Virus record (IMG/VR): IMGVR_UViG_3300027749_003496
Span: 1-23,558 of that record
DNA: 23,558 nt
Reading direction: 5' to 3' (one strand)
Origin: a virus
In this document: one piece after another, positions 5,346 through 10,656 of the stretch
Layout: each line of letters begins with the position of its first letter
How positions within the stretch are numbered: position 1 is the first letter of the stretch
Program-made: the position numbers and the translations under genes
Notes under the pieces: generated by a model
The model's input: the letters and a program-made list of their open reading frames with translations, nothing else
Told to the model about the DNA's origin: nothing
The model's database searches: none

Positions 5346-5783
5346 ATGATAGAGAAGCCTAAAATTTTAAAAATAGGAATTGCTGGAGATATAATTTATG
5401 AAAATGCAAGAAAAATTAAAGAAACGTTATTTCAGTTAAAGAACAGCCTTAAAGGACAAGAATTTATAATATATTCATTAGGAAGTATACATGGAGCAGA
5501 TAAATACATTAAAAAATATTGCTTAGAGCTTAATATTACTTATAAAGAATTTACACCATTATTTCTTCCAGTAACATTATATTCTGTATTTCCGGCAGAG
5601 ATGCATAATCAAAGATGGCATCCAGCAATAGCAGATAGGCACATAAGAAACTTCTTGAAAACCTGCAAAAAATTCATTATATTTATTAATAAAGATGAAG
5701 TATCAAGTAAGTTTAATATAAAGTTAATTAAGTCTCAAACTACAAAACTAAAATCACCAATAGTATTTATTAATGAAGGTTAA
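5346..5783 (+). CDS. SLOG-fold (DprA/YspA-like) nucleotide-binding protein
   Basis: A 145-residue Rossmann-like protein of the SLOG/DUF2493 type. The N-terminal strand LKIGIAGDIIYEN is followed by a helix, a second strand EFIIYSLGSIHGADKYIKKY (residues 39-58; family motif 'SGGAxGAD' is altered to SLGSIHGAD), then YKEFTP and a late strand FIIFIN. Family members bind nucleotides or nucleotide-derived ligands; phage copies are common but of unknown role. The usual Gly-rich loop is partly degenerate, so ligand binding may be altered. It sits alone between two promoter-like gaps. Confidence 0.7.
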   Translation: MIEKPKILKIGIAGDIIYENARKIKETLFQLKNSLKGQEFIIYSLGSIHGADKYIKKYCLELNITYKEFTPLFLPVTLYSVFPAEMHNQRWHPAIADRHIRNFLKTCKKFIIFINKDEVSSKFNIKLIKSQTTKLKSPIVFINEG

Positions 5784-5785
5784 AA

Positions 5786-5832
5786 AAAGGACCGGTTTTA
5801 AATATTAAGACGATAATTATATAAAATAAGTT
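5786..5832 (+). promoter_or_regulatory. Candidate promoter/leader of the interrupted glycosyltransferase
   Basis: AAAGGACCGGTTTTAAATATTAAGACGATAATTATATAAAATAAG precedes ATG 5833. The start (AAGG..GGTTTTAAATA) echoes the gaps before 2144 and 5346. Its last bases, ATAAAATAAGTTAT, recur exactly at 6981-6994 just before the second copy of the gene's 5' end, showing that the leader was duplicated together with the first codons. Confidence 0.35.
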
Positions 5833-5834
5833 AT
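5821..5834 (+). repeat. 14-bp direct repeat, left copy (leader of the glycosyltransferase gene)
   Basis: ATAAAATAAGTTAT is identical to 6981-6994. Each copy lies immediately upstream of a version of the same N-terminal coding segment (ILFLCDDP), so the repeat marks the 5' boundary of the duplicated region around the endonuclease gene. Confidence 0.7.
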
Positions 5835-5895
5835 GACAAACACCAAGAAACCAAAAATTCTCTTCTTGTGCGATGACCCTAGATTTAGTTGGTAG
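5833..5895 (+). pseudogene. Detached 5' end (first copy) of the GT4 glycosyltransferase
   Basis: ATG 5833 opens a frame of 20 codons, MTNTKKPKILFLCDDPRFSW, then TAG. Up to base 5890 it is the natural beginning of the glycosyltransferase that resumes at 7084: KILFLCDD is the first beta strand of a GT-B fold and RFSSGIAT the following loop. Joining base 5890 directly to 7084 gives ...CDDP-RFS-SGIATMAREV in frame, with the 10-base AGATTTAGTT at both edges. Alone it can make only a 20-residue peptide. It is either a severed remnant left when the endonuclease gene moved in, or an upstream exon if the 1193 intervening bases are removed from RNA. Confidence 0.75.
5881..5890 (+). repeat. 10-bp direct repeat at the left edge of the insertion
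   Basis: AGATTTAGTT is repeated exactly at 7074-7083. It encodes R-F-S in the frame of the glycosyltransferase. Bases diverge immediately after it on this side (GGTAG) and continue the gene on the other side (CAGGTATTGCC), so the pair defines the insertion borders; loss of one repeat plus the intervening DNA restores the gene. Confidence 0.75.
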
Positions 5896-5933
5896 TTTTT
5901 ACGACGATCCGAGATATTTATATTAAAGATATC

Positions 5934-6977
5934 ATGGATTCCACTATACATACTATAACAGGCAGTATTTATATTCCTTGCGTTATTTGCGGGATTAAAA
6001 TGAAGAATCGTATTAACGGCTCACATCTTAAAAAACACTTATTAACGATTCAAGAATACTTAATACAATATCCTGCAGCAGAAACAGGCTCATACAGTAC
6101 ATCAAATTTCAAATGTGCTATTTGTAATGAAGTAGTAAATAATAACTCTTCTATCAAATCAAAACATATTAATGGTCATGGATATACAATAGATGAATAT
6201 AATATTAAATATACTAAAATAGAATGCGGTTGCGGCTGTGGTAATATAGCAGAATATTCATATTCTAGACATAAATATAATAAGTTCGTTACTGGGCACG
6301 ATTATAAATCTTGGAATTCAGGATTGACAATGGATACAAACGATTCCTTAAAAAAAATATCTGAAGCTAGAAAGAAAACTAAAGGAACGTATACTAATAA
6401 ACAAAAAAAGGAAATTTCCGAAAGATCTAAACTATATTGGAAAGCCCATCCAGAGTCTAAAATATTAATGGTGTCTAAGATTAAAAATACTATGTTAGAG
6501 AAGTATGGTGTAGATAATTTTAGTAAACATTCATCATTTCTTGAGAAATTTAAAAAAACATCGCAAGACCGGTATGGTGTAGATTATCCTAATCAAAACT
6601 CTGAAATATATGAAAAATCTTGCAAGAGTCGCAAATACTTTAAAGATTATATACTGCCATCAGGAAAAAAGATAAGAATACAAGGATATGAAGGTTATGC
6701 AATAGATATATTATTAACTATATATCATGAAAATGATATATTAACAAAAAAATCTGATATGCCTGAAGTATGGTATGAATTTGAAAATAAAAGACGTAGA
6801 TATTATCCAGATATTTATATACCTTCACAAAATTTAATAATTGAGGTTAAATCTACTTTTACATACAAATTAGAGACTCTACAAATACATTCCAAATTAA
6901 ATGCTTTAAAAGAAATGGGATTTGATGCAAATATTTGGATTATCGATAAAAAAATATTATATTCGATTATAAATTAA
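5934..6977 (+). CDS. Homing endonuclease, zinc-finger plus PD-(D/E)XK type
   Basis: A 347-residue protein from ATG 5934; the frame is open back to a TTG at 5889, but ATG 5934 is preferred because the zinc fingers start soon after it. Two C2H2-like fingers (C16, C19, H31, H35; C61, C64, H78, H82) are followed by a CGCG knot and a Lys-rich NUMOD-like region (KISEARKKTKG). Two repeats built on EKYGVDN / DRYGVDY follow, typical of DNA-binding arms of phage homing endonucleases. The C-terminal domain has RRYYPDIYI then LIIEVKSTF (D293, E304, K306), a PD...ExK nuclease core. It sits inside the interrupted 5' end of a glycosyltransferase gene, so it probably cuts uninvaded copies of that gene to spread. 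Confidence 0.82.
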   Translation: MDSTIHTITGSIYIPCVICGIKMKNRINGSHLKKHLLTIQEYLIQYPAAETGSYSTSNFKCAICNEVVNNNSSIKSKHINGHGYTIDEYNIKYTKIECGCGCGNIAEYSYSRHKYNKFVTGHDYKSWNSGLTMDTNDSLKKISEARKKTKGTYTNKQKKEISERSKLYWKAHPESKILMVSKIKNTMLEKYGVDNFSKHSSFLEKFKKTSQDRYGVDYPNQNSEIYEKSCKSRKYFKDYILPSGKKIRIQGYEGYAIDILLTIYHENDILTKKSDMPEVWYEFENKRRRYYPDIYIPSQNLIIEVKSTFTYKLETLQIHSKLNALKEMGFDANIWIIDKKILYSIIN

Positions 6978-6980
6978 TAA

Positions 6981-6994
6981 ATAAAATAAGTTAT
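6981..6994 (+). repeat. 14-bp direct repeat, right copy
   Basis: ATAAAATAAGTTAT, identical to 5821-5834. Here it follows the endonuclease stop by three bases and precedes ATG 6997, providing the second gene copy with the same A/T leader. Confidence 0.7.
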
Positions 6995-6996
6995 AT

Positions 6997-7071
6997 ATGT
7001 TAAATGATTTAAACCAAGATAGTCGTCACTTGGAGAAGAAGAAGATTCTTTTCTTATGTGACGACCCGTGA
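6997..7071 (+). CDS. Recoded second copy of the glycosyltransferase N-terminus (24-codon frame)
   Basis: ATG 6997 opens MLNDLNQDSRHLEKKK followed by ILFLCDDP and TGA. ILFLCDDP repeats the first strand found at 5857-5880, but five of the eight codons differ, all at third positions without amino-acid change. This means the copy was under protein-level selection, not simple duplication. The main glycosyltransferase frame lies in the -1 frame: CCG TGA overlaps GTG ACA AGA (7068), because five extra bases (GTGAC, repeating the GTGAC ten bases upstream) separate CC from AAGATTTAGTT. A -1 slip on CCG, or reinitiation at GTG inside GTGA, would connect it to the downstream enzyme. Confidence 0.55.
   Translation: MLNDLNQDSRHLEKKKILFLCDDP
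7022..7065 (+). repeat. Strong inverted repeat over the recoded segment
   Basis: GTCGTCAC (7022-7029) and GTGACGAC (7058-7065) form a perfect, 8-bp, half-GC stem, unusual in this AT-rich DNA. The 28-base interior (AAGAAGAAGATTCTTTTCTT) can pair further. It ends three bases before the GTG/TGA overlap, so an RNA hairpin would sit directly upstream of the recoding or reinitiation site; it may equally be a terminator-like end of the endonuclease unit or a protein-binding DNA site. Confidence 0.6.
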
Positions 7072-8429
7072 CAAGATTTAGTTCAGGTATTGCCACGATG
7101 GCCAGAGAAGTTATCCTAGGCACCTGCCACGTATTTGATTACGTTGTTATAGGAGGCGCCTTAACCCATCCCGAAGAAGGACAAATTATCGATCTTTCAG
7201 AATCTATTAAAACAGATACGGGTAAGATTGCAAATGTAAAATTATATCCAGTATCAGGATATGGAACACCAGATTTAGTAAGACATTTAATTACTGCAGA
7301 AAATCCTGATTGCATTCTTCATTTTACCGATCCTAGATATTGGATATGGTTATATAATATGGAAAATGAAATACGTCAGCGCATTCCTATTACGTATTTA
7401 AATATTTGGGATTGTCCGCCACCACCAATGTATAATAAACCATACTATCAATCATGTGATTTATTAATGAATATATCTAAACAAACTTATGGTATTGTTC
7501 ATAAAGTATTAGATGGTTGCAATTATGAAGATTGGCAAATTACCTATGTTCCGCACGGTATAAACGAATCTCATTTCTTTCCAATATCAAAAGACTCGGA
7601 AGGATATAAAAGCGTCTTAGACTTAAGGAAATCATTCTTAACGGGTAAGAAAAACAAAGATGTTATTCCTGAATTCGTATTTTTATATAATTCAAGAAAC
7701 ATAAGAAGAAAACAAACAGCGGATATTATATTAGCATATAAAACATTCTGTGATAAGTTACCTAAAGAAAAGGCTGCTAAATGTGTATTAGTTCTTCATA
7801 CTCAACCAATAGATGAAAATGGAACTAACTTAATTGAAGTTAAAGATGTTCTTTGCCCCGATTATAATGTTAGCTTTACAAACAGAGCCTTTAATGTTCA
7901 TGAAATGAATACTTTATATAATGCATCTGATGTATTAATAAATATTTCAAGTAATGAAGGATGGGGATTATCAGCAACGGAAGCTATGATGTCAGGTATA
8001 TGTACTATCGTTAATATGACAGGTGGTCTTCAGGATCAAGTTGGATTAATGAAAGATGATGGTACTTTATTAACAGCAGATGATTATAAAGAAAAGGATT
8101 GGCATTCAAACCATGATGGAAGATATACTAAATGGGGCAATTGGTCAAAACCAATTATTCCAAGCAATCGTTCTATTCAAGGCTCTGTACCTACTCCTTA
8201 TATCTTTGATGATAGAGTTAAGTTTGAAGATGTAGCAGAGGCTATGTTTGAATGGTATAATACTCCAGAAGAAACTAGAATCCAATATGGATTAGAAGCT
8301 CGTCAATATTTAATAGATAATAAAATGAGCGCAATAGGTATGTGTGAGAATGTTATTACAGATATCACTACCTGCTTAGAAAATTTCGAACCTAAAGAAA
8401 GATTTACTCTTTTAAAGCTTACAAAATAA
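7068..8429 (+). CDS. GT4-type glycosyltransferase (main part of interrupted gene)
   Basis: A GT-B fold glycosyltransferase; the continuous frame is 453 residues if GTG 7068 is the start. The C-terminal domain shows the GT4 donor-site signature NEGWGLSATEAMMSG with E297 and E305 (E-x7-E), preceded by FLYNSRNIRRKQ (residues 205-215), a usual phosphate-binding basic loop. The start is odd: the frame begins at RFSSGIATM, lacking the first beta strand (KILFLCDD) that is present upstream at 5854-5877 and again at 7042-7065. A complete enzyme therefore needs splicing, frameshifting or a separate N-terminal peptide. The product transfers a sugar from an NDP donor; the acceptor is unknown. Another GT4 gene follows after one small gene. 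Confidence 0.85.
   Translation: MTRFSSGIATMAREVILGTCHVFDYVVIGGALTHPEEGQIIDLSESIKTDTGKIANVKLYPVSGYGTPDLVRHLITAENPDCILHFTDPRYWIWLYNMENEIRQRIPITYLNIWDCPPPPMYNKPYYQSCDLLMNISKQTYGIVHKVLDGCNYEDWQITYVPHGINESHFFPISKDSEGYKSVLDLRKSFLTGKKNKDVIPEFVFLYNSRNIRRKQTADIILAYKTFCDKLPKEKAAKCVLVLHTQPIDENGTNLIEVKDVLCPDYNVSFTNRAFNVHEMNTLYNASDVLINISSNEGWGLSATEAMMSGICTIVNMTGGLQDQVGLMKDDGTLLTADDYKEKDWHSNHDGRYTKWGNWSKPIIPSNRSIQGSVPTPYIFDDRVKFEDVAEAMFEWYNTPEETRIQYGLEARQYLIDNKMSAIGMCENVITDITTCLENFEPKERFTLLKLTK
7074..7083 (+). repeat. 10-bp direct repeat at the right edge of the insertion
   Basis: AGATTTAGTT, identical to 5881-5890. From here the glycosyltransferase continues uninterrupted (TCA GGT ATT GCC). Confidence 0.75.
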
Positions 8430-8816: not shown

Positions 8817-10151
8817 ATGACATCAAATAAAAAGACTATCGTGCTGCAGGCGCCAATCTCTACCTGTAGTGGCTACGGTGCCAGAAGTAGGGATATTGCG
8901 AAAGCATTAATAGAGAATGAAAACTATGATGTTACGATTATCCCTACTAGATGGGGTGATACACCTCAAAATTTCTTGAATGATAAAGATCCTTTGCATC
9001 AAGAAATACTTAAACGATTTGCAGCCCCTAATCAACAAATACCTCAACCTGATACCTTTATTCAGATTACAGTTCCTAATGAATTTCAAAAAGTCGGAAC
9101 GCGCAAATCTATTGGTATTACAGCAGGTATGGAAACTACATTAGTAGATGCAGCTTGGATAGAAGGAAATAATCGTATGGATATGGTTCTTTGTTCTTCA
9201 AAACATTCAACAGAAGTAATGAAATCTAGTAAGTATGATAAAATGGATCAGAACACTAAACAAAAGGTTGGAGAATTAATTTCTGAAAAAGAGATTGACA
9301 TTTTATTTGAAGGAATAGATTTTAATATCTATAAGAAGATAGAAACCATTAATTTTAATGTAAATGCTTTTATTTCGCAGATACCAGAAACATTCTGCTT
9401 TTTAGTTGTTGGGCATTGGCTTCAAGGACAAATGTGGGAAGACAGAAAAAATATGGGAGGTACTATATATACTTTCTTAAATGCTTTTAAAGGTAAGAAG
9501 AATGTACCTGCATTGATACTTAAAATTAGTTGTGGCTCATATTCTGAAATAGATCGTCAAGAAATTCAAAAGCGCGTTAATCAAATTAAAAAGATGTTTG
9601 ATGACGAAGGAATAAGAATACCTAATATTTACTTATTACATGGTGATTTAACGGATGAAGAAATGAATTCATTATATAATCATCCAAAGGTAAAAGCTAT
9701 GGTGTCTATGACTAAAGGAGAAGGATTTGGAAGACCGTTAGCAGAATTTGCAGTTACAGGAAAACCAATTATTGTTTCTCAATATTCAGGTCATATGGAT
9801 TTTCTTCCTAATGAAATGGTTATGTATGTTCCAGGTGAAATGAGACCAGTTCATGCATCAGCAGTTATTCCTAATTTAATATTAGCAGAATCGCAATGGT
9901 TTATGCCTAACCCAGCAATCGTTGAAAGATATTTAATTGATACTTTTGAAAATTATAAAGTAAAATTGGAATCATCTCGTAAGCTAACTAAATACTTAAA
10001 AGATAATTTTTCTTTTGATAAGATGAAAGAAAATCTTTATAATTATATCGATGCTCCCGTTAAGGTAATAGCACCGAAGCCACAAATGCAACAATTGAAG
10101 TTACCTCAAATCAAAAAAATTGAGCTACCCAAATTAAAGAAAATAGATTAA
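8817..10151 (+). CDS. GT4-type glycosyltransferase (444 aa)
   Basis: A complete GT-B glycosyltransferase. The first strand and glycine loop are TIVLQAPISTCSGYGARSRD (residues 7-26). The C-terminal donor-binding domain has LVVGHWLQGQMWEDRKN (about 196-212) and the GT4 signature GEGFGRPLAEFAVTGKPI with E302 and E310 (E-x7-E). After residue 415 comes a Pro/Lys tail with repeated units (LKLPQIKK, ELPKLKK) that is not part of the fold. Compared with the previous gene it has an uninterrupted N-terminus, which shows what the invaded enzyme lacks in its continuous frame. Donor and acceptor unknown. Confidence 0.88.
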   Translation: MTSNKKTIVLQAPISTCSGYGARSRDIAKALIENENYDVTIIPTRWGDTPQNFLNDKDPLHQEILKRFAAPNQQIPQPDTFIQITVPNEFQKVGTRKSIGITAGMETTLVDAAWIEGNNRMDMVLCSSKHSTEVMKSSKYDKMDQNTKQKVGELISEKEIDILFEGIDFNIYKKIETINFNVNAFISQIPETFCFLVVGHWLQGQMWEDRKNMGGTIYTFLNAFKGKKNVPALILKISCGSYSEIDRQEIQKRVNQIKKMFDDEGIRIPNIYLLHGDLTDEEMNSLYNHPKVKAMVSMTKGEGFGRPLAEFAVTGKPIIVSQYSGHMDFLPNEMVMYVPGEMRPVHASAVIPNLILAESQWFMPNPAIVERYLIDTFENYKVKLESSRKLTKYLKDNFSFDKMKENLYNYIDAPVKVIAPKPQMQQLKLPQIKKIELPKLKKID

Positions 10152-10152
10152 T

Positions 10153-10656
10153 ATGATAAAACCAAACTTAACAGAAACCATTCCTTGCCCTTGCAAAAAT
10201 GGCGGTAATGCATTTAAAGACTCATTCGATAGAATCGAAGTTTCTTTATGCAGTACTTGTGGATTAATGACTACTTCTCAATATCAAGAAGATTCAGAAC
10301 AAGTATTAAAGATTAAAGAATTATGTCCTCCCGAAATAATGCTTATAAGTATATTGGATGATAATAACTTTAGATGGTTTCCATCGGTAATACCTTATTC
10401 AAAGAAGGGTGTTATTTATGCAGAGCCTAAAGGTAAGAATCAATTTAATTGGTATGTAGCTCCAGTAGTTAAAGTAGCGGAAGCAGAAGGTTATTTATAT
10501 ATTAATCCTGCTACTAATACTCCTTATGAAAGACGTATTGCGCAAGAACAAGCTATTATATTTGATAAGAATGAATTTATAAAAGCATTGGAGTTATCAG
10601 AAATAGATGAAGCTAAAGATTTATTAAACCGAATTAACCAAATATTTAATAATTAA
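10153..10656 (+). CDS. Zinc-ribbon phage protein of unknown function (167 aa)
   Basis: The N-terminus has two cysteine pairs, CPCKNGG (C12, C14) and LCSTCGL (about C33, C36), forming a likely zinc ribbon. The middle has strands (RWFPSVIPYSKKGVIYAEP; NWYVAPVVKV) and the C-terminus is helical (ALELSEIDEAKDLLNRI). I associate this pattern with uncharacterised proteins of large T4-like phages, but no function is known. It follows the glycosyltransferase by one base and starts a run of small genes before the sugar cassette. Confidence 0.65.
   Translation: MIKPNLTETIPCPCKNGGNAFKDSFDRIEVSLCSTCGLMTTSQYQEDSEQVLKIKELCPPEIMLISILDDNNFRWFPSVIPYSKKGVIYAEPKGKNQFNWYVAPVVKVAEAEGYLYINPATNTPYERRIAQEQAIIFDKNEFIKALELSEIDEAKDLLNRINQIFNN

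Follow-up and report, generated by a model that had tools for sequence, protein, structure and literature searches.

We found that a glycosyltransferase gene in a virus contig of the IMG/VR type (record IMGVR_UViG_3300027749_003496, positions 1 to 23,558; this whole stretch of 23,558 nucleotides is called the window here) is interrupted by an insertion that carries an endonuclease gene and, downstream of it, a second, recoded start of the glycosyltransferase gene, closed by a stop codon where it meets the rest of the enzyme. A conserved RNA hairpin lies directly before this stop, and the arrangement recurs in seven alleles, with or without the endonuclease. The insertion is probably a homing-endonuclease-linked translational-bypass ("stop-hop") cassette with a logic similar to that of phage T4 mobA/gene 60: the presence of the hairpin directly before the stop in all seven alleles suggests that ribosomes hop over the stop codon to make the whole enzyme.

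The original start of the gene survives as a left remnant at 5833-5895 (on the plus strand, like every feature of the window described below). It reads MTNTKKPKILFLCDDPRFSW followed by TAG, with the fragment MTNTKKPKILFLCDDPRFS (5833-5889) leading into a tryptophan codon and a stop at 5890-5895, and it matches the intact gene start in L001 and L002, two phages that are close relatives. The rest of the GT4 glycosyltransferase, beginning RFSSGIATM, occupies 7074-8429 (451 codons to the stop) and is assigned by the Pfam family Glycos_transf_1 and by the fold of the intact L002 relative. A first-pass annotation of the window had described an interrupted glycosyltransferase gene, and we located the left fragment and both copies of AGATTTAGTT, at 5881-5890 and 7074-7083, as it had them. 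Its prediction that related phages would carry an uninterrupted allele was borne out by L001 and L002, where the enzyme (98% identical) is read straight through CDDPRFSSGIATM without an insert and the gene, MTNTKKTKILFLCDDPRFSSGIATMAREI, is joined as predicted. These empty alleles support the view that a mobile unit with an endonuclease entered an enzyme gene that had been intact, and the window and L003 on the one hand and L001 and L002 on the other represent occupied and empty forms of one site in related genomes. The inserted unit as defined by comparison with L001 and L002 spans 5891-7073, which is all the sequence missing from them except one AGATTTAGTT copy. The 10-base-pair direct repeats that had been taken as borders of the element are present, but they have no special border role: they consist mostly of gene sequence common to both sides of the insert, and their counterpart in L003 is only 7 base pairs long (AGATTTT). 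The left flank and the enzyme body of the window are 96.7% and 96.9% identical to those of L001, respectively, so the insertion in the window lineage is recent.

A structural model of the intact L002 enzyme (mean predicted local distance difference test score 89) resembles solved GT-B enzymes such as 3oy2; in it beta strand 1 spans residues 7-14 and helix 1 residues 21-33, so the insert falls in the loop after strand 1. The frame that runs downstream from GTG 7068 lacks this first strand, as had been noted earlier; strand 1 and the DD pair are invariant among the intact relatives. In the phage isolate records that we checked, the related enzymes of immuto and LR756508 are uninterrupted at the insertion site, and the insert DNA had no match there. 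A comparison of the window with L003 for co-conversion beside the junction found only a few bases in common. In the Microcystis phage Mel-JY01 (L005:2962-4453) the homologous glycosyltransferase consists of two separate genes, split before (T/K)YVPHG between the two domains. In L153 (2985-3010) the reading frame is lost in this linker too (gaaaatgaaaaataag), as a result of either a real frameshift or an assembly error.

The first-pass annotation had overlooked the second, recoded copy of the gene 5' end that lies downstream of the endonuclease gene and has a stop at the junction. It has its own repeat of the translation-start region, ATAAATAAAATAAGTTAT at 6977-6994, whose left counterpart is TTATATAAAATAAGTTAT at 5817-5834. 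The short open reading frame that follows (ORF1, MLNDLNQDSRHLEKKKILFLCDDP, 6997-7071) extends from ATG 6997 to CCG 7068 and the stop TGA at 7069-7071, and it has the same form in six other alleles. From AGA 7074 the enzyme body continues in another frame. In our reading of the junction TGACA (7069-7073), the proline codon CCG at 7066-7068 would be the take-off codon, TG (7069-7070) the gap and ACA (7071-7073) the landing triplet, which fits CCG poorly. On this comparison of codons the window allele is one of the weaker members of the group. With so poor a landing triplet, its cassette may work inefficiently or have been damaged recently, for instance through loss of one nucleotide from CCG TGA CCA AGA.

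The alleles were collected by several patterns. One directed at the GIATMARE segment returned about 120 loci, nearly all uninterrupted, together with L047 and L068, which are broken at the same codon and have identical sequences from two metagenomes. A pattern for a stop codon within CDDx...GIATM, with no hairpin required, added L133, and patterns built on the hairpin arms added L139, L153 and the L142 group (L137, L141, L142 and L143), which was also recovered by a pattern lacking the 5' arm. The window, L003, L047/L068 and L133 were found without use of the hairpin. Counting the window, there are seven distinct interrupted alleles on 11 contigs, compared with about 90 distinct intact ones. 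Their common layout is a short ORF1 ending in CDD(P/I/L), a stop, a gap of 2-6 nucleotides, a triplet that usually matches the last codon, and then R..SG(I/V). The stop (TAA, TGA or TAG) directly follows the take-off codon in every allele, while the residue before it varies between P, I and L. L003, whose enzyme is 82% identical to that of the window, has the left remnant, a related endonuclease and a recoded start ending CCG-TAA, followed by AAA CCT AGA. The take-off codon, gap and landing triplet before AGA are CCG, TAAAAA and CCT in L003; ATC, TAAAA and ATT in L068; ATT, TGAGGA and ATC in L142; CTT, TGA and CTA in L139; ATT, TGA and GTT in L133; and ATT, TA and GTC in L153. The landing triplet encodes the take-off residue in four of the seven; in the window (CCG/ACA), L133 (ATT/GTT) and L153 (ATT/GTC) the mismatch is confined to the first base. 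Gap lengths vary, with four alleles in frame across the stop and three out of frame. Outside the glycosyltransferase gene only chance matches were returned when other viral contigs were searched with the hairpin-plus-stop pattern and 84,980 prokaryote species genomes with the junction pattern, and scanning with the stop left out of the pattern revealed no glycosyltransferase allele that had the hairpin yet lacked the stop.

The stem-loop of the window (7022-7065, z-score -3.0) has a lower stem formed by GTCGTCAC (7022-7029) and GTGACGAC (7058-7065) and an upper stem formed by GGAGAAGAA and TTCTTTTCT. All seven ORF1s hold GTCGTCAC...GTGACGAC, with the 3' arm abutting the take-off codon. GTCGTCAC is found in all seven interrupted alleles compared with none of 122 sequences upstream of uninterrupted loci, and the CDD codons are written TGTGACGAC in all seven compared with two of 92 uninterrupted genes. 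Folding energies of the seven ORF1s lie between -22 and -30 kcal/mol, whereas those of 78 uninterrupted gene starts never fall below -15.1 kcal/mol, and at most one in 1000 synonymous recodings of any ORF1 was as stable (0/1000 for the window). The hairpins of the window and L003 are identical at 46 of 47 bases, compared with 77% identity in the DNA of the endonuclease gene; their lone difference lies outside the stems and alters an amino acid (L/S). The inner stems differ between alleles in sequence and in register while pairing is kept, and because the registers differ we relied on the synonymous-recoding test rather than scoring covariation column by column. There is only one hairpin of this kind per phage record. 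The conservation of the hairpin and the re-pairing of its inner stems fit with selection on the RNA.

These comparisons suggest a sequence of events in which a homing endonuclease would insert where the phage GT4 glycosyltransferase gene has its conserved CDD(P/I/L)-R codons, bringing with it, downstream of the endonuclease gene, the rewritten gene 5' end with its own start. With the stop placed immediately after the CDDx codons, the occupied gene would cease to match the cut site and would be protected from recutting, and the new 5' end supplied by the unit would have to be joined to the rest of the gene across the stop codon. A ribosome that has moved past CDDx and has the stop in its A site would let go of the mRNA and shift 5-9 nucleotides forward over the stop; the peptidyl-tRNA would re-pair with the triplet before AGA and translation would go on with R..SG. 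The motor may be the stem-loop, which lies immediately behind the take-off codon. Its upper stem would be able to form outside the ribosome and its lower stem, of 8-9 base pairs, would close while the mRNA is pulled through; the location of the lower stem where the ribosome would cover it, set against a shift of 5-9 nucleotides, would correspond to the gene 60 motor. A hop from the CDDx codon to the pre-AGA triplet would account well for four alleles and fairly for L133 and L153; the window fits it least.

The endonuclease gene of the window (5934-6977) encodes a 347-amino-acid protein of the DUF7487 type (Pfam PF24308, E 5e-45), a 71% identical protein being found at the same place in L003. 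It matches endonuclease and homing endonuclease families in PHROG (E 2.5e-6 to 3e-4), DUF7487 itself being of unknown function. The endonucleases of L139 and L153 are of the DUF723/DUF4379 type, a family unrelated to that of the window and L003. L068 has a decayed, frameshifted endonuclease of the DUF723/DUF4379 type whose parts lie in different frames (9750-10465), and next to it ORF1, the hairpin and the stop are intact; no endonuclease adjoins the glycosyltransferase gene in L133 or the L142 group. The interrupted alleles sit on separate branches of the enzyme tree and five changes are needed to account for them, which implies repeated movement or loss of the cassette. The enzyme body is under purifying selection, with ratios of nonsynonymous to synonymous substitution (dN/dS) of 0.08 for L133/L123 and 0.23 for L139/L153. 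The retention of ORF1, hairpin and stop alongside a conserved enzyme body where no working endonuclease remains is an argument that expression of the gene makes use of the junction. No comparable cassette was seen in the neighbourhoods of the endonuclease relatives L006-L010. Ahead of the endonuclease start the target motif occurs once more in a short form, GACGATCCGAGAT (5903-5915, DDPR-like), as it does in L003, L068, L153 and L139, where it reads FIDDPR. I-TevI represses its own expression, and by analogy the motif copy is a possible autoregulatory operator, or else a remnant. A small conserved open reading frame (LTSVKV..ELFEEFKV..FSLQKLTERS.HLYL) separates the PD-(D/E)XK nuclease gene from the glycosyltransferase gene in several relatives, as in L133 (3531-3758), L139 (2341-2550) and L153 (1228-1428); at this place the window has a different one, at 5346-5783.

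The readings that do without a hop each leave part of this pattern unaccounted for. It is unlikely that ORF1 is a short upstream peptide with stop-coupled reinitiation nearby, the enzyme lacking strand 1 or obtaining it separately. Split phage enzymes are known, as in the mobE-split nrdA of phage Aeh1 (PMC2988022), and a start is available in the window, where GTG overlaps the stop (GTGA), and in L133 and L142, where an ATG lies in the R-M-x-S motif; only in these three alleles could the downstream piece be started separately, before the conserved sequence. L003, L068 and L153 have no in-frame ATG, GTG or TTG between the stop and R..SG, and the first in L139 is a GTG inside the motif. A two-piece enzyme, which the first-pass annotation had offered as an alternative and which we disfavour, would also lose strand 1 and the DD pair, and it leaves the hairpin abutting the stop unexplained. 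We give slightly less credence to the view that the enzyme was inactivated by the insertion, in the window if not elsewhere, and that the stop and gap are damage. The recent insertion, the out-of-frame junction and the poor landing triplet of the window, with its possible one-nucleotide loss, would suit a dead gene; diverged lineages, however, keep the stop position, the hairpin and an open enzyme body even after endonuclease loss.

Recoding of another kind, in which the in-frame alleles would read through the stop and the others would shift frame by -1, seems improbable. The reading frame is kept across the stop in four alleles and the window has a C CCG slip site (to CCC GTG), but alleles that share one hairpin would need different mechanisms. 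Readthrough fails for the three that are out of frame, and one fixed frameshift fails for the four that are in frame. L068 and L153 have no slippery sequence, and a stimulator behind the ribosome favours forward movement. Reassignment of a stop codon is unlikely, given that each of the three stops (TAA, TGA and TAG) is used at this position. Removal of a compact intron or intervening sequence from the RNA, also raised earlier, has almost nothing to recommend it beyond the fact that deletion of 5891-7083 leaves an in-frame gene laid out as in L001 and L002. The earlier remark that no group I intron core was seen in the bases flanking the endonuclease gene agrees with an Rfam search that found no group I or II match at E values up to 5; splicing leaves the recoded start with its own hairpin unexplained, and it is excluded in the endonuclease-free alleles (L133 and the L142 group) because they have no left gene half to join.

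Several points weigh against the stop-hop itself. The landing triplet ACA of the window would pair with the proline anticodon at two positions only, and L133 and L153 are imperfect too. Agreement of the take-off codon with the landing triplet does not by itself prove hopping, since both sides of the insert may simply carry the ancestral codon of the target. None of the seven alleles has a gene 60-like stem-loop within its gap of 2-6 nucleotides or a gene 60-like nascent-peptide motif in its ORF1 (24-29 codons, with no KKYK), although another peptide signal is possible. Three of the seven alleles were first found with patterns containing the hairpin arms, the dN/dS values give no date for the insertions, and all of the support is comparative.

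The balance of the evidence tilts towards a widespread phage family of short programmed stop-hops of 5-9 nucleotides, driven by a stem-loop immediately behind the take-off codon and disseminated by two or more unrelated families of homing endonuclease. It would be a second mobile bypass cassette besides T4 mobA/gene 60, and its in-frame alleles would be the first natural stop-hops. Bonocora et al. reportedly described mobA and the bypass as a mobile cassette in PNAS in 2011; among the papers that we searched, none described the present cassette. Programmed bypassing has so far rested essentially on T4 gene 60 and the mitochondria of one yeast. If we are correct, seven natural short-hop variants, in which stops, gaps, frames and landings vary while the lower stem is invariant, would make ribosome movement driven by mRNA structure directly testable. 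They would also lend support to the proposal that bypass signals travel with homing endonucleases and let the host gene survive invasion and resist recutting.

Among known systems, the mobE-split nrdA of phage Aeh1 likewise has an enzyme gene split by a free-standing homing endonuclease; its pieces are separate polypeptides, whereas several alleles here have no start for a second piece (PMC2988022). The tape-measure gene of mycobacteriophage Corndog has an HNH insertion that is also at the gene start, with no intron by reverse-transcription PCR and with bypass as one suggested possibility, but no recoded ORF1 with a stem-loop was described there and an ACG start is equally possible (PMC4351075). 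In the mitochondria of the yeast Magnusiomyces capitatus many gene insertions are similarly tolerated through translational bypass; unlike the cassette, these are inserted nucleotide blocks described as independent of mRNA context, with no endonuclease neighbour noted (PMC5009743). The closest parallel is T4 gene 60, with its stop after the take-off codon, matched landing codon, endonuclease neighbour and 5' stem-loop acting as a motor (PMC5009743, PMC3014915); this stem-loop is partly formed outside the exit channel and completes as it pulls the mRNA (PMC5009743). As in T4, an endonuclease gene is inserted in a host gene and one protein is made, here by prediction, from two open reading frames (PMC5009743, PMC3014915, PMC11194080), with the stop directly after take-off, a stem-loop 5' of it and, in four of our seven alleles, a matched landing codon. 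Gene 60 differs in its gap of about 50 nucleotides, in its gap stem-loop and in its nascent-peptide signal, KKYK some 25-30 residues before take-off. The present cassette, known from sequence alone, differs in its recoded gene start, in its endonuclease families and in its recurrence in many phages. Natural in-frame stop-hopping has been regarded as possible, with no occurrence known at the time of review (PMC5009743). Synthetic stop-hops have matched codons flanking a stop (PMC5009743), and CTT TGA CTA in L139 has exactly that form, in a cassette that is natural and that adds a stem-loop.

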